IMG/VR virus record: IMGVR_UViG_3300045453_000088
Location: 1-31,967 of that record
Origin: a virus
Direction: 5' to 3' (one strand)
DNA length: 31,967 nt
Shown here: positions 595 through 31,967 of the stretch, in pieces
How the letters are laid out: each line of letters starts with the position of its first letter
Numbering within the stretch: the stretch's first letter is position 1
The notes under the pieces: model-generated
Databases searched by the model: none
Seen by the model: only the letters and a program-made list of their open reading frames with translations
Told to the model about the DNA's origin: nothing
Translations under genes and position numbers: made by a program

Positions 595-1217
595 TTCGTT
601 AAAACCTCCTTTTCAAAATCTATTGATATGGTGTTTTTACCCTTAAGCTCCCATCCAACTTGTCCACCTAGCAGCGTGCCTAATTCCCTTGCAACTACTT
701 GAACAAAACCATTTTTCCCAGGCACGGATATATAGACTTTACCATCTATATTTTCCATAGGAACACCAATTTCCTTATCGTTAATTAAAAGCCTAAGAGG
801 AGGTTTGTTTTCTTGGGCAGCCAAGTATTTAGAAGGATCAACATGAGTGCCCCAGCCTTGCCTGCGAATTTCATAATGCAAATGACTTCCAGTAACTTGG
901 CCAGTAGCTCCTTGCCTACCAATTTTCTGCCCAACTTCTACAAACTCTCCCTCTTGAACACAAATACTATCTAAATGAGCATAGACATGAGTATAGCCTT
1001 GTAAATCTTTTATAGCAACAACATTTCCGTAATTGCCATAGCCACTTCCTTTAGTACCAAATTTCGCCCAAGTTACTTTCCCGGCAACAAAAGCAAAAAT
1101 CGGGGCACGATGCGACTTAACCATATCAATTCCAGTGTGCATTTGTTTGTTCCCTGTTATTGGGTGCTTTCTCATTCCATAAGGAGATGTGATCCTATAA
1201 CCAAAATTCTCAAACAC
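591..1217 (-). CDS. Endolysin: M23 (LytM-type) peptidase with C-terminal copper-amine-oxidase-N-like domain
   Basis: This is the peptidoglycan-cutting enzyme for host lysis. The 208-residue product carries the M23 zinc signature: H27-x3-D31 (HTGID), H81 (YAHLD) and H112-x-H114 (SHLHYE). Residues about 137-205 (LRLLINDKEI...VARELGTLLGG...W) resemble the small beta domain known from copper amine oxidase N-terminal repeats, common in clostridial secreted proteins; here it may bind the cell wall. No signal peptide is visible, as expected for a holin-released lysin. The start codon is GTG, preceded by GGCGGTGG. The holin follows with a four-base overlap; a recombinase fragment lies just upstream. 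Confidence 0.9.
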   Translation of the reverse strand: MFENFGYRITSPYGMRKHPITGNKQMHTGIDMVKSHRAPIFAFVAGKVTWAKFGTKGSGYGNYGNVVAIKDLQGYTHVYAHLDSICVQEGEFVEVGQKIGRQGATGQVTGSHLHYEIRRQGWGTHVDPSKYLAAQENKPPLRLLINDKEIGVPMENIDGKVYISVPGKNGFVQVVARELGTLLGGQVGWELKGKNTISIDFEKEVLTK

Positions 1218-1250
1218 TACACCACCGCCTAATAAATTATTTTTATCTTC

Positions 1251-1562
1251 CTAGTTTCTATATGCAGCCTTAAAACTCAAATAAACTTCTCTTTCTTTGT
1301 TCCCTTTACCGATTACATTTGTAGCCAAAGCAGTCCAATTTATGTCATTGATATTCAGATGCTGAAGCTCACTCAATCTACCGCCAGTGGCATAAAAGAC
1401 TTCAACCATTGACCTTTCCCTAAAAGTAACGCAAGCTTCACGAATCATCTCTAATTCTTCAATCGTTAACGCTTTGGGTAATCTTTTTTCTTTTTTTGGG
1501 AGATTTAATTTTAGCCGTAGGGTCCCTCTTCTAAAGTTAACCGACCTACTGCACAGCATCAT
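1251..1562 (-). pseudogene. Tyrosine recombinase (XerC/D-like) fragment
   Basis: Residues 25-100 match the start of the catalytic domain of tyrosine recombinases. KRLPKALTIEELEMI is the domain linker, TGGRLSEL holds the first catalytic arginine (usually TGLRxSEL), and GKGNKER holds the catalytic lysine loop. The N-terminal core-binding domain, the HxxR box and the tyrosine nucleophile are missing, and no ribosome site precedes the first ATG. The recognisable part starts just after the XkdX stop, and the nominal start overlaps XkdX out of frame. It is a broken piece of an integrase gene inserted between tail and lysis genes and has no expected activity. Confidence 0.75.
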
Positions 1563-1686
1563 AAGCCTCGCTGACTATCTCCTGATATTGATCGGCTGTT
1601 ATTACGCTCTTAACTACTGCGTTTTTTACCATTGCCTTATTCCACAGCTTCCTGTCATAATTCCGCTTCACTATTTCGAATGTCAT
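1546..1686 (-). CDS. XkdX-like small tail protein
   Basis: The 46-residue product begins MTFEIVKRNYDRKLW and contains VKSVITADQYQEIV. This matches the XkdX family of Bacillota phages (a short protein with a ITxEQYxEI motif), which is encoded right after the fibre genes; its molecular role is unknown. A strong ribosome site (AAGGAGG, 8 bases before the ATG) sits between it and the preceding gene. The stop is TAG at 1546-1548. Confidence 0.75.
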   Translation of the reverse strand: MTFEIVKRNYDRKLWNKAMVKNAVVKSVITADQYQEIVSEAYDAVQ

Positions 1687-1699
1687 AATAATATCCTCC

Positions 1700-2035
1700 T
1701 TAATATTTCATCATGTTATCATATTCCATTGCCGCTGCTATTCTTTCCTCCGCTGTCGGCTCTGGTGGTTTGTTGGCTTGCTCATATTCCCACTGAGAAA
1801 TTGCATCCAATATTTCCTGGTCTGTCAAGCCAACAGCAAATGGTACTCCTAGGTTGGCATAATGTTCTTTCGTTGCTGTAAACTCCATGAAAACCCCCAT
1901 GTTGATGGGAGCATCACAGATAATATACTTCAGATGTAAAGCTGCTGGCATCTTCTCGAAAACCTTTTCTGGAGATAATACTTCTCCGATTGGTGTTATT
2001 AAATTTTCCTTCTTATCCCATATTTTATATTTCAT
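1700..2035 (-). CDS. Unknown fibre-linked protein (possible tail-fibre assembly protein)
   Basis: This is a 111-residue protein with no membrane segment or signal peptide. It starts MKYKIWDKKENLITPIGEV and ends in an acidic, alanine-rich helix (PTAEERIAAAMEYDNMM). I do not recognise a defined family. The gene directly follows the fibre and its ATG shares one base with the fibre stop (TAATG), so the two are co-translated. This is where phages usually encode a fibre chaperone or accessory protein. The role is inferred from position only. Confidence 0.6.
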   Translation of the reverse strand: MKYKIWDKKENLITPIGEVLSPEKVFEKMPAALHLKYIICDAPINMGVFMEFTATKEHYANLGVPFAVGLTDQEILDAISQWEYEQANKPPEPTAEERIAAAMEYDNMMKY

Positions 2036-4065
2036 TATACAATCGTCCCCCTTTTATATTTAACATAACCTGTTACCCTTTGAACATAAATCAAAGTTGT
2101 GCTGGTGGCAGCTGTTTGCTCGTTTTCTTCTGTGAAACGATACCTGCTTCCTGCCGTGACGGGTATATAAGTTACGACATCGCTTTGGTACGCATCAACT
2201 ACTGTACTAATAGGACTTCCGCCGCAGAATAAGGCGTTAGTACCTACAGTGGTAGCTGTTAAGTTGCTTCTTGCTGCTGATAGTGCTGTTGGAGTTGAGC
2301 GCACCAAGGAAGTATTATACGCATCAACTACTGCATTAGCAGCACCCATAGCATTAACACCCCCGCCGAACAAGGCGTTAGTACCTACGGTGGTAGCTGT
2401 TAAGCTGTGTCTTGCTGCTGATAGTGCTGTTGGAGTTGAGCGCACCAAGGAAGTATTATACGCATCAACTACTGCACTAGCAGAACCTGTATCACCCCCG
2501 CCGAACAAGGCGTTAGTACCTACAGTGGTAGCTGTTAAGTGGCTTCTTGCTGCTGATAGTGCTGTTGGAGTTGAGCGCACCAAGGAAGTATTATACGCAT
2601 CAACTACTGCACTAACAGCACCTGTAGCACCCCCGCCGAACAAGGCGTTAGTACCTACGGTGGTAGCTGTTAAGCTGTGTCTTGCTGCTGATAGTGCTGT
2701 TGGAGTTGAGCGCACCAAGGAAGTATTATACGCATCAACTACTGCACTAGCAGAACCTGTATCACCCCCGCCGAACAAGGCGTTAGTACCTACAGTGGTA
2801 GCTGTTAAGTGGCTTCTTGCTGCTGATAGTGCTGTTGGAGTTGAGCGCACCAAGGAAGTATTATACGCATCAACTACTGCACTAACAGCACCTGTAGCAC
2901 CCCCGCCGAACAAGGCGTTAGTACCTACGGTGGTAGCTGTTAAGCTGTGTCTTGCTGCTGATAGTGCTGTTGGAGTTGAGCGCACCAAGGAAGTATTATA
3001 CGCATCAACTACTGCACTAGCAGAACCTGTATCACCCCCGCCGAACAAGGCGTTAGTACCTACAGTGGTAGCTGTTAAGCTGTGTCTTGCTGCTGATAGT
3101 TCTGTTGGAGTTGAGCGAATTAAAAACGGGTATGTTTGCGTAGCGTAATTAGTAAAATCTACATGTACCAGACCACCTCCTTCACCCTGTAAGATAAAAT
3201 TTGTACCATTAAACCTCACTGTGTATACGCTATTTGCTGCCAAATCCCCTGACTCCAAGGCTTCTCCGTTAGCTCTCAAGACTGTCCTTGCTCCTAGACT
3301 GTTTATGTTTAGCGTTACTGCTCCTGTGTTTGCAGTTACATTACGAAAAGCTATTGGCAATCCTGCTGTGTACGAAGCTGGCGCAGGCGATACTGTTATT
3401 GTTTTGTCATTAGTACCAGAAGCATCTGCGTACCTTATATGGTGCGTAGCGTCGTTTGCATGGTCATCTACCGTTTGTCGTATAGCAATATCATCTGTTG
3501 CACTTGGCGCAGCCACCTTCGCCCTACCTGCAGCGTCTCGCAATACTATCCTGTTTGCTGTAGCTGCGGATGTTGCGGAATGTGACGAAGTTTCAGCCAA
3601 ATGCGACATAACAGCTGTGGCCACTCCTGAAATTTGTGCCCGTCGTTCCGTAGAGGTAAGCTCTTCAACCTGCTGTCCGGTGCCAACAGACCATAACACT
3701 ATTGAACCTGCCGCAATAATTCCGGTAGTGTTATGACTAAAATTACCATCACTTTGCAGAAACAGATAATATGTTGTTTCTATAGCCGGGTCGGTGATAT
3801 AGTAGGTGGTGTCCTCGGGTATATCAACCATAATTATGGCATTGGAACTATTAATGAATTCTGCACGCCCCGGGCTGATCGTCAGTTCAATCCTATTGTT
3901 TGCTAGGTCGTATGATGCCGATTTTAAGAAAAAAGGTTTATCGGCTTGAGCCTCGGAAGCTGCATTCTTTTCAATGGCGTTAAGTATTTCAAGGAAATTC
4001 TCACGGTTTACTTTTTCAGTGCCCAGTGGCATAGGTATTTTAAGCTTATCTGATAGTTCAGGCAT
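2035..4065 (-). CDS. Tail fibre with seven Kelch-like repeats (receptor-binding protein)
   Basis: The 676-residue product has an N-terminal region of about 150 residues (attachment/baseplate side). A stalk-like middle follows, with TANRIVLRDAAGRAKVAAPS and a beta-rich section. Then come seven tandem units of about 45 residues carrying RSTPTALSAAR, TNALFGGG and VVDAYNTSL. A GGG turn, a V-D-x-Y strand and a conserved Arg are the marks of Kelch beta-propeller blades, and seven blades would close one propeller. A short unique C-terminus follows; in the last blade the GGG is CGG. It is expected to bind a cell-surface sugar or protein. The DNA repeats are nearly exact, so blades have been copied recently. 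It follows tail protein I and precedes a possible assembly factor. Confidence 0.85.
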   Translation of the reverse strand: MPELSDKLKIPMPLGTEKVNRENFLEILNAIEKNAASEAQADKPFFLKSASYDLANNRIELTISPGRAEFINSSNAIIMVDIPEDTTYYITDPAIETTYYLFLQSDGNFSHNTTGIIAAGSIVLWSVGTGQQVEELTSTERRAQISGVATAVMSHLAETSSHSATSAATANRIVLRDAAGRAKVAAPSATDDIAIRQTVDDHANDATHHIRYADASGTNDKTITVSPAPASYTAGLPIAFRNVTANTGAVTLNINSLGARTVLRANGEALESGDLAANSVYTVRFNGTNFILQGEGGGLVHVDFTNYATQTYPFLIRSTPTELSAARHSLTATTVGTNALFGGGDTGSASAVVDAYNTSLVRSTPTALSAARHSLTATTVGTNALFGGGATGAVSAVVDAYNTSLVRSTPTALSAARSHLTATTVGTNALFGGGDTGSASAVVDAYNTSLVRSTPTALSAARHSLTATTVGTNALFGGGATGAVSAVVDAYNTSLVRSTPTALSAARSHLTATTVGTNALFGGGDTGSASAVVDAYNTSLVRSTPTALSAARHSLTATTVGTNALFGGGVNAMGAANAVVDAYNTSLVRSTPTALSAARSNLTATTVGTNALFCGGSPISTVVDAYQSDVVTYIPVTAGSRYRFTEENEQTAATSTTLIYVQRVTGYVKYKRGTIV
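2231..3117 (-). repeat. 135-bp tandem repeat array (exact 270-bp dimers) encoding Kelch blades
   Basis: The marker AAGGCGTTAG recurs at 2231, 2372, 2507, 2642, 2777, 2912 and 3047: one 141-base interval and five of 135. Units alternate between two versions (one coding GDTGSASA, one GATGAVSA), so the true period in 2372-3080 is 270 bases. Within it the copies look base-for-base identical. This indicates a very recent tandem duplication of a two-blade unit. The count could vary between isolates or be miscounted by short-read assembly. Confidence 0.9.
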
Positions 4066-4077
4066 ATCTTACACCCC

Positions 4078-4695
4078 TTATATCTCGAAATTATTCCAGG
4101 TTAACTCCAGTTTGTCTAGCTGGTTCCAAGTCCAGTCCTGGGCGTCCAGTTCGTCCCAAATTAGCGGGAAGACAATTGCATGTAGTTTAGATTCTCCTGG
4201 TTTTGCATCATTGATCACTTGCTTCAGAATCTTGTAATGTTGGAAGAATAACGCTCGCTCTGAAGCTGATAATCTAATAATGAATTCAGCCCACAAGCCA
4301 AGATATTCCGGATTTGGATCAGCAACATACTTTTCCTTATACAAAGGATAAATTTCTATTTCAGTGTATCCCAGCGCCGTTAGGAGCCTCATCATTCCGT
4401 CTTCACTACCGCCTTCCCGGTAGATATCGTAGGCACTCATCAGCCTCCAGCGATAATCATCATCGGTTTCACCGGCATAACGTGGCAGTTTTCGATCTTC
4501 ACCACATAAGTCTAAGGCTGGTCCTTTGGCAGTGGCCACCAGGGCTTTCTCCCGGATAGAATAAATTTTAGCCCTAACCTCATCGTAAGCTTGGCCAATC
4601 GCTTTAAAAAACTTCCAGATATCACTCTTTTCCCTATCAATTACCCGGTTGAATACCCTAGTTGCAAGTCTCCAGAAATACTCTGCAAATATCAT
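4078..4695 (-). CDS. Phage tail protein I / YmfQ-like baseplate protein (Mu gp48-like)
   Basis: The 205-residue product links the baseplate wedge to the fibres. It contains LPRYAGETDDDYRWRLMSAYDIYREGGS, split here as the motif LPRYAGETDDDYRWRL followed by a Gly-Gly turn, typical of the YmfQ (DUF2313) and tail protein I group. The C-terminus is aromatic (W-rich, WDELDAQDWTWNQL). The start overlaps the stop of baseplate J by four bases (ATGA). The order J, I, fibre is the standard one for contractile phages. Confidence 0.8.
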   Translation of the reverse strand: MIFAEYFWRLATRVFNRVIDREKSDIWKFFKAIGQAYDEVRAKIYSIREKALVATAKGPALDLCGEDRKLPRYAGETDDDYRWRLMSAYDIYREGGSEDGMMRLLTALGYTEIEIYPLYKEKYVADPNPEYLGLWAEFIIRLSASERALFFQHYKILKQVINDAKPGESKLHAIVFPLIWDELDAQDWTWNQLDKLELTWNNFEI

Positions 4696-27909: not shown

Positions 27910-30009
27910 TTAATTCTCATTGCCTACTCGGCGAAGATAATCGTCAAATCTGTTGCTATTAACCACTTTTTTAGTTTCGGTTTGAATCTTTTCAGCTTGC
28001 TTTGCTTTAGATGTTCTCTCCATGCCGGTGATCATTCTCATGTCTCCAGGAACTTGAACATTTTTACCAGTGGTCATTACCGGACCATGTTCCTGGCGTT
28101 CATTTACTATTTCTTCTAAGCTAACTTCCTGATAGCCACGCAATCTTTCCTTTAGCTCTTTTTTGCGTGTGGCGCGTTTTTTAAGGAATTGCTTAATATC
28201 GTCTTTTGAAGCATCCCAGTCCATCAATTCTTTGTTTGTTGCTGTGCAGATGTAATTGCCGTTCTTTGGATTGAATATTAATAACTCACCAATTCGATTT
28301 GGATCGTATCGAATGACCAAACTTTGCCCTACATATTTTTCAAGCAACGGGTGGCTGTACCACCGGCGCTGGCTTTGGGTACCAAATCGCTGGATGCCGG
28401 TTGCGGTAACCTTGGCCTTTTCCACATCCATCAGGCAGATATCCAGCGTCCGATCGTCAGGCATTTCCTTTCGGGCTTTAGGTGTCATTTGATACTTTTC
28501 ATAAGGCGTCATGCCTAAAGTGCTATGAACAAAATTATGATATTGATATATATACATCTCTAAAAGCAGACAGGCTTCTTCCAGTAAGAGCAGTTCTCCA
28601 CGGTCACACATCACTTTTTCATCAAGTCCAAATGGTCGGTCTTTATTGTCACTTCCGCAATACCCAGGAATGTAGCGTGAGAATTGGTCTGTCATGGTGC
28701 CAAACCAGCGTTCTGCATGTCCTTTGGCCCAAGGAGAATACTTGGTGCAAAACTTAGCTTCAATATTTAACAATTCGCATGAGCTGCGTACTTCTTTTGA
28801 ATACTCCCAATCATCTGCTTTAATACCCTTACGTACTTTGGCCTTATAATCTTCGCCGTTATCGATATATAAAGTCTTGGGCAGTCCGTAATCAGGCAGC
28901 TTCTGACCGGCGCATTCTTTAAACATTTCTAAATCCCACCCAAGAGATTGTAGAGAGTTAGCCATAGCTTTACTCATATGACTATCTAGTCCAGCGGGCA
29001 TCTTTTTAGCCAGAATTCCGTGTCGAAGTGCTAATGCAATAGTTCTACCATTTGCCTGGATACTTAACGACCATCCAGTGATCACTCTTGAAGCAACATC
29101 TTCCCATACTGTTAACCATGGCCGGTGCGGCTTGCCTTTGTAACTGATGAAGAAGTCCATACGGTGGTGGTCACCTTCCCACACCTGGTTTACAAATTCC
29201 GGTTCCTTTCTAAGGACTTTTTCTGCAAATCGTTTCATGTATTCTTCTTCACCTTCCCTAGCCAAACACACTAGGTCTGATTCATATCTTTTTAGATCGT
29301 CTATAACCCGGTAGGTGGTCGCTCTACTAGGAATATCAAAACCATTCAGCTTGCAGAATTTTTCAACCCGCTTATGCACATGAGATACTTTTGGTTGGTT
29401 GCGCTTCAGGTATTCAGCCCTGGCAAACCGTTCAACTTCTTCAGTGACCGACCGGCGCACTGTGCCGGTGCCTAAAGTTGGCGTACGTTTCATTAATGCT
29501 GCAATTCCTCCTTCCTGATAAAGTTCTACTCTGCGGTAGAGCGTCTTGAGAGAAATACTATGTCGCCTTGCAATAATCTTTGCTTTTACAGTTTTGCCGG
29601 TACAGTCCCCCAAGTCTAAATACTCTAGTACCGGCTTAGCCTTTTCATCAGCTTCTTCAAGCAACTGGTTAAATCTCTGGTCTCCAACGAGAGCTTTCAC
29701 CTCTGCCAAATTGAGACTTTTTGTTATACCGGACGTAGGTTCTTCGATTGAATCCGGCTCATTTATTACTTCTTCAGTAACAGCAACATCTTCAACAGCG
29801 TTTTGTTCGTACCATCGGCGGCGGGCTATAGTGGAGAGAGAAGATAGTGCAACGAGATATCCGCTGCCACCATTCCCGCCACGACCAATTTTTTCTTTCT
29901 TTACATCCCAATCTCCGCCGTAAACCTTATTGAGTGCCGCCTGTCTTGAGACGCCTTCAAGGGCAGCAGCCTGGCTTGTTGTTAACCAAATCTCTTTCAT
30001 CAATTGCAC
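27910..30009 (-). CDS. MuA-like transposase (DDE)
   Basis: The 699-residue product cuts and joins the phage ends. Residues 4-65 are the Mu N-terminal winged helix (IWLTTSQAAALEGVSRQAAL). Helix-turn-helix regions for end binding follow (about 130-240, with ARRHSISLKTLYRRV). The RNase H-like core has D280 (WEGDHH), D383 (YIDNGEDY) and E433 (GHAERWFG). The Mu-type C-terminal barrel is at about 535-620 (YSHPLLEKYVGQSLVIRYDP), followed by a basic tail that contacts MuB. The start is GTG with GGTGGTGA eight bases upstream. The first 12 codons and leader are duplicated at 31587-31638. Confidence 0.92.
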   Translation of the reverse strand: MQLMKEIWLTTSQAAALEGVSRQAALNKVYGGDWDVKKEKIGRGGNGGSGYLVALSSLSTIARRRWYEQNAVEDVAVTEEVINEPDSIEEPTSGITKSLNLAEVKALVGDQRFNQLLEEADEKAKPVLEYLDLGDCTGKTVKAKIIARRHSISLKTLYRRVELYQEGGIAALMKRTPTLGTGTVRRSVTEEVERFARAEYLKRNQPKVSHVHKRVEKFCKLNGFDIPSRATTYRVIDDLKRYESDLVCLAREGEEEYMKRFAEKVLRKEPEFVNQVWEGDHHRMDFFISYKGKPHRPWLTVWEDVASRVITGWSLSIQANGRTIALALRHGILAKKMPAGLDSHMSKAMANSLQSLGWDLEMFKECAGQKLPDYGLPKTLYIDNGEDYKAKVRKGIKADDWEYSKEVRSSCELLNIEAKFCTKYSPWAKGHAERWFGTMTDQFSRYIPGYCGSDNKDRPFGLDEKVMCDRGELLLLEEACLLLEMYIYQYHNFVHSTLGMTPYEKYQMTPKARKEMPDDRTLDICLMDVEKAKVTATGIQRFGTQSQRRWYSHPLLEKYVGQSLVIRYDPNRIGELLIFNPKNGNYICTATNKELMDWDASKDDIKQFLKKRATRKKELKERLRGYQEVSLEEIVNERQEHGPVMTTGKNVQVPGDMRMITGMERTSKAKQAEKIQTETKKVVNSNRFDDYLRRVGNEN

Positions 30010-30027
30010 TTATTCAATCACCACCTT
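29976..30027. repeat. Copy A of 52-bp repeat: MuA start and leader
   Basis: It matches 31587-31638 with one base difference. It covers the ribosome site, the GTG start and about the first 12 codons of MuA. In copy A it is separated from the operator repeat by about 207 bases holding a 58-residue gene. Confidence 0.9.
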
Positions 30028-30038
30028 TAACTAACTTT

Positions 30039-30215
30039 TTACTGCTCCGGGATGTAATAATCCACACGTTCGTGGAGTATATCCCAGTAAACTACCATGT
30101 GAACACCGGTATGGTCTATGATGCGCTTGCCACCCGGAAAAACCGGAAAGTCCTCTACTTTTATTTGGTTTATACTAAAATGTTGATTTATCCAGGCTAA
30201 AACTTTTTGTGACAT
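30039..30215 (-). CDS. Small unknown protein, first gene of MuA operon
   Basis: The 58-residue product starts MSQKVLAWINQHFSINQIKV and ends VHMVVYWDILHERVDYYIPEQ. No helix-turn-helix is evident, so it is not an obvious Ner-type repressor, although it has the Ner position before A. The ATG at 30215 follows AGGTGAGG; an upstream GTG at 30224 lacks a ribosome site. The gene is missing from the second copy of the control module. Confidence 0.65.
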   Translation of the reverse strand: MSQKVLAWINQHFSINQIKVEDFPVFPGGKRIIDHTGVHMVVYWDILHERVDYYIPEQ

Positions 30216-30234
30216 TTTCCTCACCTCTTGATTG

Positions 30235-30299
30235 ACAGGATTTTCCCACCCTCTGACGAATTATGTTAGTGCCGCTAACTAATCCAGGAGAGGGGGTGA
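30235..30299. promoter_or_regulatory. Divergent control module, copy A (operator palindrome)
   Basis: This 65-base segment is repeated at 31652-31716 with four differences. It centres on GTTAG-TGCCG-CTAAC (30265-30279), flanked by ATTAT and TAAT, giving an extended dyad. On the minus strand CATAAT (30265-30260) is a good -10 for the MuA operon, with the dyad directly upstream of it. TTGACA (30232-30237) may be a plus-strand -35, but no good -10 fits. A repressor bound here could control both directions. Confidence 0.65.
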
Positions 30300-30304
30300 A
30301 ATAA

Positions 30305-30853
30305 ATGATCCGAAAAGAAGAAAAAATATTTGACGAATTTTCAAATACGCTTCTTGGTAAACAAGATTTTGAGCACTTTTACGAAAAAGCTATGTCCTAT
30401 TTAAAAAATGACCGGTATATAAAAGTAAATGTTTATATCTCTATTAAAGATCGACCTCAAGAATTGGTTATTAACGATTTCGGAGAATTTAAGGAGTTTG
30501 TCCATCGAAAAGATGTTATTGCCAATATCTCATTTATTATTGGTGCCTATTTCGATAATGATGAAGCTCATCAGTTTACTTTCCTTTATAATCCAATTTC
30601 AGGATTAAGATTGAAGATATCTTCTCATGACAACGTATGGCTACAGGAAACTATTACAAATATGGAAGATTATCTTACTGAATACCTCAGTTCCAAGGCT
30701 ATTCCAGAGAAAATAGATTCTAAGGAAACTATGCAGCACATAAATATAACTATTGAAAATAATACTTCAGGTAAAACTAAGAACCCACTGGATATTGTCC
30801 AAAAAATTTTTTCTATTATCACGATGGGTCGCAATTTCTTTCGAAGTCTATAA
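30305..30853 (+). CDS. Unknown plus-strand protein next to control module A
   Basis: The 182-residue product starts MIRKEEKIFDEFSNTLLGKQ after AGGAGAGGGGGTG. It is charged and mixed alpha/beta (YIKVNVYISIKDRPQELVI, FIIGAYFDNDEAHQFTFLYNP), without a signal peptide. The C-terminus has a weakly hydrophobic basic end (IFSIITMGRNFFRSL). No helix-turn-helix and no known family were recognised. Transcribed away from MuA like the Mu c repressor, it is a candidate for lysogenic expression. Its end overlaps the convergent gene by 35 bases. Confidence 0.6.
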   Translation: MIRKEEKIFDEFSNTLLGKQDFEHFYEKAMSYLKNDRYIKVNVYISIKDRPQELVINDFGEFKEFVHRKDVIANISFIIGAYFDNDEAHQFTFLYNPISGLRLKISSHDNVWLQETITNMEDYLTEYLSSKAIPEKIDSKETMQHINITIENNTSGKTKNPLDIVQKIFSIITMGRNFFRSL

Positions 30854-31373
30854 CAGCCGGTATAGTAGCGACTAATTTATCGCCGTCAAAAATCAAAAAC
30901 TGCTCTGTAGACGGCCTGAACACCACCTCAACTGTTTTACCTATTAATGCTTGTATTTCTGGCCTTGATGCGTTATATCCAAAACCGTCTAATTCAAGCC
31001 CGTTACGAGTCACTTTGGCTAACTTGGCAAAAGTAGCGAAAGGGTCTTTCTTTAACTTCTTTAATCGTGCTTCCCATATGCCTGTTAATCGTGCATACTC
31101 TTCTCTGGAGATAAGCAATAAATGTAGCAGGCTAAAAGGGTCAAAATCAAACTCAACGGTAAATTTCTGCTGCTCATCCTGAGCGGCTGTTTTTTTGCCC
31201 TCCATTTTCTGGCTTGAGATCATTTCTTCTAGCAATTCACATTCTTCTTTCGCCTGTTTCCACTCAAGTTCAAAACCTTCTTTAGCTTCAGTCATTGCGT
31301 AATTTTTCGAGTAGCACAGTAAATTGTGGCAAGCCTGATCATAATATGTTTGAAGCAGTTCTTGTTTTCCCAT
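30819..31373 (-). CDS. Unknown protein with MuA C-terminal barrel-like tail
   Basis: In the 184-residue product, residues 1-120 are helical and charged with no known motif. Residues about 122-170 (KVTRNGLELDGFGYNASRPE, then IGKTVEVVFRP, FLIFDGDKLVATI) resemble the C-terminal barrel of the MuA in this window (GQSLVIRYDP, ELLIFNPKNGNYICTA). No DDE residues are present, so it is not a transposase. It could bind MuA or DNA as a regulator, or be a recombined remnant. The ribosome site AAAGGAG lies 8 bases before the ATG. The start overlaps the 3D gene by 35 bases. Confidence 0.5.
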   Translation of the reverse strand: MGKQELLQTYYDQACHNLLCYSKNYAMTEAKEGFELEWKQAKEECELLEEMISSQKMEGKKTAAQDEQQKFTVEFDFDPFSLLHLLLISREEYARLTGIWEARLKKLKKDPFATFAKLAKVTRNGLELDGFGYNASRPEIQALIGKTVEVVFRPSTEQFLIFDGDKLVATIPAVIDFERNCDPS

Positions 31374-31620
31374 CTTCTAAACTCCTTTCATAAAGAATTA
31401 TTGCTTTCCTAACTCCGTGTCTAATGGCTTCTTCATGGGTCTGGCGAAACACATCAATCTTTTTTACTCCAGTTTTTCTCATGGCCCCGCCGGTGTCCAG
31501 GGCTTGTCCAACTTCAATGGTCCCGTCCGGGTAGAGAATATGAATCTCACTACCGTACGGAATTAGCTCCGGGTTGACAGCGATTGTTGTTGTTAACCAA
31601 ATCTCTTGCATCAATTGCAC
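31339..31620 (-). CDS. 3D-domain protein carrying MuA-derived first codons (chimera)
   Basis: In the 93-residue product, residues 13-80 are the second half of a 3D domain: AVNPELIPYGSEIHI, then GQALDTGGAM, KKIDVFRQTHEEAIRHG and KAIILYER. The aspartates of DTGG and IDVF are kept; the first one (usually AVDP) is Asn. 3D proteins are MltA-fold peptidoglycan enzymes and normally have a longer N-terminus. Here the first 12 residues (MQLMQEIWLTTT) are the MuA start. The ORF looks like a recombination product; whether it is functional is uncertain. Confidence 0.65.
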   Translation of the reverse strand: MQLMQEIWLTTTIAVNPELIPYGSEIHILYPDGTIEVGQALDTGGAMRKTGVKKIDVFRQTHEEAIRHGVRKAIILYERSLEDGKTRTASNIL

Positions 31621-31638
31621 TTATTCAATCACCACCTT
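31587..31638. repeat. Copy B of 52-bp repeat: MuA start and leader
   Basis: It is identical to 29976-30027 except for one base (MKEIWL becomes MQEIWL). It now supplies ribosome site, GTG start and first codons to the 3D-domain ORF. The operator repeat follows after only 13 bases. Confidence 0.9.
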
Positions 31639-31651
31639 GTTGCTAATTTTT

Positions 31652-31716
31652 ACAGGATTTTCCCACTTTCTAACGAATTATGTTAGTGCCGCTAACTAAT
31701 CCAAGAGAGGGGGTGA
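31652..31716. promoter_or_regulatory. Divergent control module, copy B (operator palindrome)
   Basis: This is the second copy of the 65-base segment at 30235-30299. The palindrome GTTAGTGCCGCTAAC (31682-31696), the CATAAT minus-strand -10 and the plus-strand ribosome site AGAGAGGGGGTGA are conserved; TTGACA is TTTACA. It lies between the 3D ORF and the 81-residue plus-strand gene. Confidence 0.65.
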
Positions 31717-31721
31717 GAATT

Positions 31722-31967
31722 ATGGATAGCTTAATGTTTGATGAACTTTATCAAGAGGTTTTACAGGAAGCTGAAAAGAAATTGATTAGGAAATTGCAAC
31801 TCGAAATTAGACAAATTCAAAGGTTGGAGCTTCCTGAAAAAATTCCTACAAGTAAACTTCTTGAACTAATTTACGATTTCACTATTCATGCAAGTAGAGA
31901 AGCTTTAAAGGAATCAGTACGGGCATCCGTAACCATCCTGCAAAAGTACCACGAATCTAAAGGGTAG
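31722..31967 (+). CDS. Small unknown plus-strand protein next to control module B
   Basis: The 81-residue product starts MDSLMFDELYQEVLQEAEKK and ends HESKG with TAG at the last window bases. It is helical and amphipathic (LIRKLQLEIRQIQRLELPEK, LLELIYDFTIHASREALKES), perhaps a small coiled-coil or helix-bundle protein. The ATG at 31722 follows AGAGAGGGGGTGA; the earlier in-frame ATG at 31680 lies inside the operator. Not homologous to the 182-residue gene by eye. No function recognised. Confidence 0.6.
   Translation: MDSLMFDELYQEVLQEAEKKLIRKLQLEIRQIQRLELPEKIPTSKLLELIYDFTIHASREALKESVRASVTILQKYHESKG

Follow-up and report, generated by a model that had tools for sequence, protein, structure and literature searches.

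A duplicated module in a Mu-like prophage: candidate sigma-H-type promoters within hairpins predicted to hide a ribosome-binding site

Described systems and the prophage compared with them

The early control region of phage Mu comprises operators, the repressor c, ner and pE. In IS10 and IS50, the transposase genes enjoy fold-back protection, in which an inverted repeat hides the ribosome-binding site (RBS) only in read-through RNA. For e, soc, 49 and I-TevI of phage T4, a late promoter has been described within the 5' arm of an RBS-hiding hairpin; RNA initiated upstream is locked, whereas RNA from the gene's own start is translated (PMC3014915, PMC2988022). In Staphylococcus aureus, the int promoter of a prophage is read by the host sigma-H and promotes lysogeny, and the authors did not find this promoter region in other Firmicutes phages (PMC2869324).

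Here we describe a repeated module in a virus record of 31,967 bases, analysed over its whole length and referred to below as the window. MuA, MuB, Mor, GemA and Gp27-type genes occur in it together, identifying the carrier as a Mu-like transposable prophage. The window contains two near-identical control modules, A and B, each flanked by a different divergent gene pair, as the original prediction had recognized. We consider it moderately probable that each copy heads a self-contained cassette and that in it a sigma-H-type promoter sits inside the 5' arm of an RBS-hiding hairpin. Such a module would resemble the T4 genes in having its promoter where the 5' arm is encoded and in a predicted hiding of the RBS only in upstream-initiated RNA. 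However, the T4 genes belong to a lytic programme and depend on a late sigma factor of the phage itself, whereas here the putative promoter is of a host sigma-H type and the phage is temperate, with repeated cassettes whose genes are exchangeable. Like the S. aureus int promoter, the module is a short conserved prophage region preceding a Shine-Dalgarno sequence and, judged by consensus, read by host sigma-H. The int region differs in being read by the staphylococcal sigma-H, in sequence and in its position before int; the modules have sporulation-type AGGA..GAAT boxes, precede small orphan genes and contain a spacer that pairs with the Shine-Dalgarno sequence. The likeness to IS10 and IS50 is the inverted repeat predicted to hide the RBS in read-through RNA only, but here it stands before accessory phage genes and has a sigma-H-type promoter inside it. 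With Mu the prophage shares its phage class and the location of the modules in the early region. In contrast to the Mu control region, the modules lack a repressor or ner, the repressor/cro region of relatives is located elsewhere, and the module genes oppose the early operon.

Layout of the repeats and their neighbouring genes

The two 65-base segments of the repeat (30235-30299 and 31652-31716), located exactly as originally reported, are identical at 61 of 65 positions, and the four differences are CC>TT, G>A and G>A (copy A versus copy B). A second pair, of 52 bases (29976-30027 and 31587-31638), has a single difference (51/52 identical) and had been said to hold the start of the leftward gene; it does: the MuA transposase gene contributes its RBS and its first 11 codons. 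Extended alignment lengthened the repeats to 68 bases (93% identity) and 67 bases (88%), respectively. In copy B both parts are contiguous and form one block of ~130 bases; in copy A they are separated by ~190 bases with a 61-codon minus-strand ORF. The only repeats of at least 30 bases in the window are these two, which are far beyond chance expectation, and a tail-fibre tandem array. The array consists of six tandem 135-bp units at 2220-3194, within a tail-fibre-like ORF of 676 aa (2035-4065, minus strand).

Table 1. Positions of the modules, their predicted elements and the adjoining genes in the window.
Feature	Coordinates	Strand	Basis or remark
MuA transposase, 699 aa, early operon	27910..30009	-	homology
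muA RBS and first 11 codons (repeat D3, copy A)	29976..30042	-	repeat comparison
61-codon early ORF between the repeat parts, copy A only, missing from copy B	30039..30224	-	
Module A putative sigma-H-type promoter, AGGA-N17-GAAT (AGGATTTTCCCACCCTCTGACGAAT)	30237..30261	+	exact match; boxes kept in relatives
Module A predicted hairpin, 5' arm, inside promoter spacer	30242..30254	+	fold -21.8 kcal/mol, z -2.5
Palindrome GTTAGTGCCGCTAAC, copy A	30265..30279	.	straddles predicted start site ~30269, inferred from promoter spacing
Module A predicted hairpin, 3' arm, includes Shine-Dalgarno of 182-aa gene	30289..30301	+	
182-aa orphan gene behind module A, antiparallel to early operon	30305..30853	+	
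184-aa mosaic-looking ORF	30819..31373	-	two-part homology
Terminator-like hairpin and T run, 3' of 182-aa gene	31169..31187	+	consensus scan only
93-aa chimeric ORF	31339..31620	-	muA start in frame with C-terminal part of 3D-domain protein
Copied muA RBS and first 11 codons (repeat D3, copy B)	31587..31653	-	repeat comparison
Module B putative sigma-H-type promoter, AGGA-N17-GAAT (AGGATTTTCCCACTTTCTAACGAAT)	31654..31678	+	exact match
Module B predicted hairpin, 5' arm	31659..31671	+	fold -19.8 kcal/mol, z -1.9
Palindrome GTTAGTGCCGCTAAC, copy B	31682..31696	.	predicted start site ~31686
Module B predicted hairpin, 3' arm, includes Shine-Dalgarno of 81-aa gene	31706..31718	+	
81-aa gene behind module B	31722..31967	+	homologues behind modules in L034 and L032

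On the left side of copy B, the 93-aa ORF matches the Pfam 3D domain (8.5e-8) and can be aligned to the 3D protein of L005, the closest relative of the prophage (MuA 65-66%). The neighbouring 184-aa ORF looks mosaic: its N-terminus is 71% identical over 48 aa to an early protein of L034, and its C-terminus gives a weak Mu-transpos_C match. Because one of these ORFs is chimeric and the other mosaic-looking, we take the left side of copy B to be a recombination relic, and not evidence for a second transposase-like switch. No homologues of the 182- and 184-aa proteins were found in viral contigs. The structure model of the 182-aa protein was too poor to use; that of the 81-aa protein is a predicted two-helix hairpin with no significant PDB match. 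PADLOC gave no match for the cassette genes, which were accordingly rejected as defence genes. The consensus scan for terminator-like hairpins returned 2, against 1.6 expected. Near the left end of the window, a short tyrosine-recombinase ORF (1251-1562; Phage_integrase, 2.3e-11) is probably truncated.

It had been noted that the window encodes no known repressor, and the early ORFs that were tested indeed included none of cI type; this absence is probably explained by trimming of the record. Its last position coincides exactly with a stop codon, indicating that the record was probably trimmed at a gene boundary. In L005 the repressor and cro sit upstream of the early operon, and cro is separated from muA by a longer 3D gene. 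By this layout, the cro/repressor genes of the window would be expected beyond 31967. In another locus, L031 (reverse complement, ~790-4560), a CRISPR-like repeat array adjoins a Mu-like prophage repressor gene, and its repeat translates as FQILIGRLVT.

Related modules, putative promoter boxes and the predicted ribosome-site hairpin

Modules related to those of the window were found via the loci around MuA relatives and by motif search. They are present in L006/L004, L007, L016/L017, L034 and L035, each adjoining a small gene oriented opposite to the early operon, and L017 and L035 each have two, as does the window. A covariance model built from nine modules added one in L032, beside a 36% MuA relative, and one in L056, next to an early regulator of a phage. 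MuA searches of phage and plasmid collections yielded distant relatives only. When one such unit was used in BLAST, the Geobacillus phages phiOH2 and GBSV1 and the Parageobacillus phage NIIg3.2 were recovered. Behind the phiOH2 unit is a 105-aa gene, which opposes the early genes in direction and is located between antirepressor and recombination genes. In NIIg3.2 (OP341623) the unit precedes an unannotated 99-aa ORF (L186, 4056-4355; phrog_3675, 8e-16), which is antiparallel, on the strand opposite the annotated gp31; the ORF behind the GBSV1 unit is unconvincing. The antiparallel layout is common to L006, L007, L017 (two modules), L034, L035 (two modules), L056, phiOH2 and NIIg3.2.

The genes behind the modules differ, encoding proteins of 182, 81, 127, 151, ~149, 79, 84, 131, 88, 82 and 83 aa, among which two cassette families recur (81/84/82 aa and 151/180 aa). 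A known function was found for none of the module-gene proteins, and nearly all of the cassette genes encountered are orphans or DUFs, one of them being the gene left unannotated in the published NIIg3.2 genome. By eye, the proteins of L017 (127 aa), L006/L017 (149-151 aa) and L035 (131 aa) share a distant C-terminal motif, FLxERL..P..A..REAI, and may constitute one diverged family. Two or more module-like units before small genes were also seen in the phage contigs L115, L121, L092 and L136. In bacterial genomes, the covariance model additionally matched ahead of a few genes for IS transposases and S-layer-homology proteins (L042, L046, L044, L049), the two transposase genes preceded by module-like matches being those of L042 and L046. 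The device may therefore extend beyond phages.

The strongest conserved feature of the modules in relatives is AGGA-N17/18-GAAT, present in exact form in 9 of 11 Mu-like phage modules, the exceptions being L006 and L007. SigH-type start sites in Sporomusa (n=322) have AGGA at -35, GAAT at -10 and spacers of 17-18 nt, and the same motif has been reported for Moorella, Carboxydothermus and Thermacetogenium (PMC12456013). Both copies in the window have these boxes at a spacing within this range. In copy B, a G>A change at the first -10 position retains a purine. In six genomes, those of the relatives' hosts and their kin, AGGAWWTT-N8-13-GTCGAAT occurred 20 times, compared with 3 for the reversed control, and only spacings of N9-N11 were found although N8-N13 was permitted. 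This excess and the restricted spacing support the view that AGGA..GAAT marks a real promoter class in host-type genomes. In the window alone, a relaxed promoter pattern was not significant (2 found versus 3.0 expected). From the consensus we infer that the modules carry host sigma-H-type promoters.

The spacers of the modules are 72% C, compared with 19% in host promoters, and are complementary to the downstream Shine-Dalgarno sequence. The CC>TT difference in the copy B spacer preserves pairing as G-U. In predicted folding, the Shine-Dalgarno sequence of module A was unpaired at 0.00 in read-through RNA and at 0.21 in own-start RNA, the latter set to begin ~8 bases after GAAT. The same behaviour was predicted for 11/11 Mu-like modules (0.00-0.06 in spacer-containing RNA versus 0.19-0.54 in own-start RNA), so that the predicted folding reproduces the T4-type arrangement, in which read-through RNA has its Shine-Dalgarno sequence paired and own-start RNA leaves it more accessible. 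The strongest hairpins were those of L006 and L007, though these modules lack exact promoter boxes.

Specific pairing was separated from composition by combining the spacer of one module with the Shine-Dalgarno region of another. An independent set of 28 unique modules was taken from viral contigs and chosen by promoter boxes and then by RBS and ORF; in it, own pairs were stronger than swapped pairs (p=0.0017). This was also true of 14 Mu-like and Geobacillus modules (p=0.0001). For all 42 modules the test gave z=-5.8, and a control with the Shine-Dalgarno region read backwards gave z=-1.9. By these swap tests, the two arms have been kept complementary in evolution, as expected of a T4-type hairpin. 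Covarying pairs include CTCCTTTTTGTC/GACAAAAAGGAG (L111, L169) and CTTAATT/AATTAAG (L132). The evidence for pairing is collective, because composition-matched spacer shuffles equal the own pairing in most single modules, A and B included. Covariation of the inner stem is not claimed, as only 3/11 modules beat shuffles at ~0.03 or better.

In the mechanism that we propose, transcription from a host sigma-H-type promoter would proceed rightward into a small accessory gene that is oriented opposite to the Mu-like early operon. Read-through RNA started upstream would fold into the hairpin, and with its ribosome site hidden it would not be translated. RNA from the module's own promoter would start inside the hairpin, lack the 5' arm and be translated. 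Expression would then be tied to sigma-H activity, at stationary phase or the onset of sporulation, and insulated from other transcription. Given the orientation of the cassette genes opposite to the early operon, early transcription would run counter to them, and this would suit expression in the lysogen. The two cassettes may have arisen when a block comprising the module and the adjoining muA start was either duplicated or acquired a second time and became linked to other early genes.

Alternative readings and significance

The original prediction treated the locus as a pair of divergent switch points that one regulator could read through a shared palindrome. In this reading GTTAGTGCCGCTAAC is a DNA operator whose two copies are bound by a prophage repressor or a cassette product, which thereby switches divergent promoters; we regard the reading as unlikely. 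The palindrome occurs exactly twice in the window, once per module and identical in both, and it straddles the predicted start site, a usual place for an operator. However, 15 identical bases are unsurprising within a 93% repeat: by hand calculation, ~27% of random placements of 5 differences in 68 positions spare 15 given bases, which makes the identity weak evidence of selection. Nine modules of other Mu-like phages do without the palindrome, which had been put forward as the operator, and palindrome plus flanks has no exact match in viral contigs, so a widely shared operator was rejected. At neither module does either strand carry a sigma-70 promoter matching at 9/12 or better. The minus-strand CATAAT proposed as a -10 box is present as a sequence but is not borne out as a leftward promoter, and the leftward early promoter of a Mu-type switch was not seen at the modules; the ribosome sites proposed for the plus strand are present and good. 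The likely repressor operator of L006 has three copies, all of them between repressor and cro and none in the module, and the L006 repressor therefore probably does not read the module. The suggestion that the 182- and 81-aa proteins read the operator is improbable, as they have no recognizable DNA-binding domain and the gene behind the module varies among phages. One factor could nevertheless read both modules. L017 and L035 likewise have two. Because the predicted start falls within it, the palindrome could be a stem-loop of the initial transcript or an operator specific to the window.

Quite unlikely, in our estimation, is a leader that acts as an RNA regulatory element (a riboswitch or protein-binding RNA), transcribed whole from an upstream promoter, with AGGA and GAAT as parts of the RNA. 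Several modules do fold, over the whole strand, more stably than their shuffled versions (z -2.5, -1.9, -2.5, -3.1 and -3.3), and L007 retains the hairpin without the boxes. Yet AGGA-N17/18-GAAT fits the SigH spacing, and host genomes contain promoters with the same boxes and no hairpin; the riboswitch-like interpretation was dropped once this motif emerged. The loop lacks strong conservation across the wider module set, and no known Rfam cis-regulatory RNA matched above its gathering score, the matches being at chance level only. Least probable of the alternatives is that copy B is debris, a neutral duplication from recombination, with copy A alone active. The chimeric 93-aa ORF, with its muA start and 3D C-terminus, the mosaic look of the 184-aa ORF and the weaker hairpin of copy B are what such debris might leave, but its boxes and RBS are intact, as is the 81-aa gene behind it, which has homologues behind modules in two other phages, and the paired modules of L017 and L035 also speak against it.

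We therefore return to the sigma-H-type promoter inside an RBS-hiding hairpin. Comparable units are found in further phages of Gram-positive bacteria, so that the repeat probably represents a common device rather than a repressor switch unique to this prophage. The reading of prophage promoters by host sigma-H is already known, so far for staphylococcal int genes. The joint sigma-H/hairpin arrangement was not found in the subset of open-access literature searched, and earlier descriptions may exist. If our reading is correct, it joins prophage use of host sigma-H with promoter-in-hairpin locking in the style of T4. Isolated Geobacillus phages carry the unit, so the reading is testable now. More tentatively, and with somewhat less confidence than we place in the reading of the two copies themselves, the module may be a portable cassette head common to temperate phages of spore-formers. 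It would serve exchangeable small genes antiparallel to the lytic early operon, several could stack in one prophage, and their products would be made only in stationary phase or sporulation and not from lytic or read-through RNA. If true, the unit would provide a simple sequence marker for lysogeny-expressed accessory genes in the phages of spore-formers.
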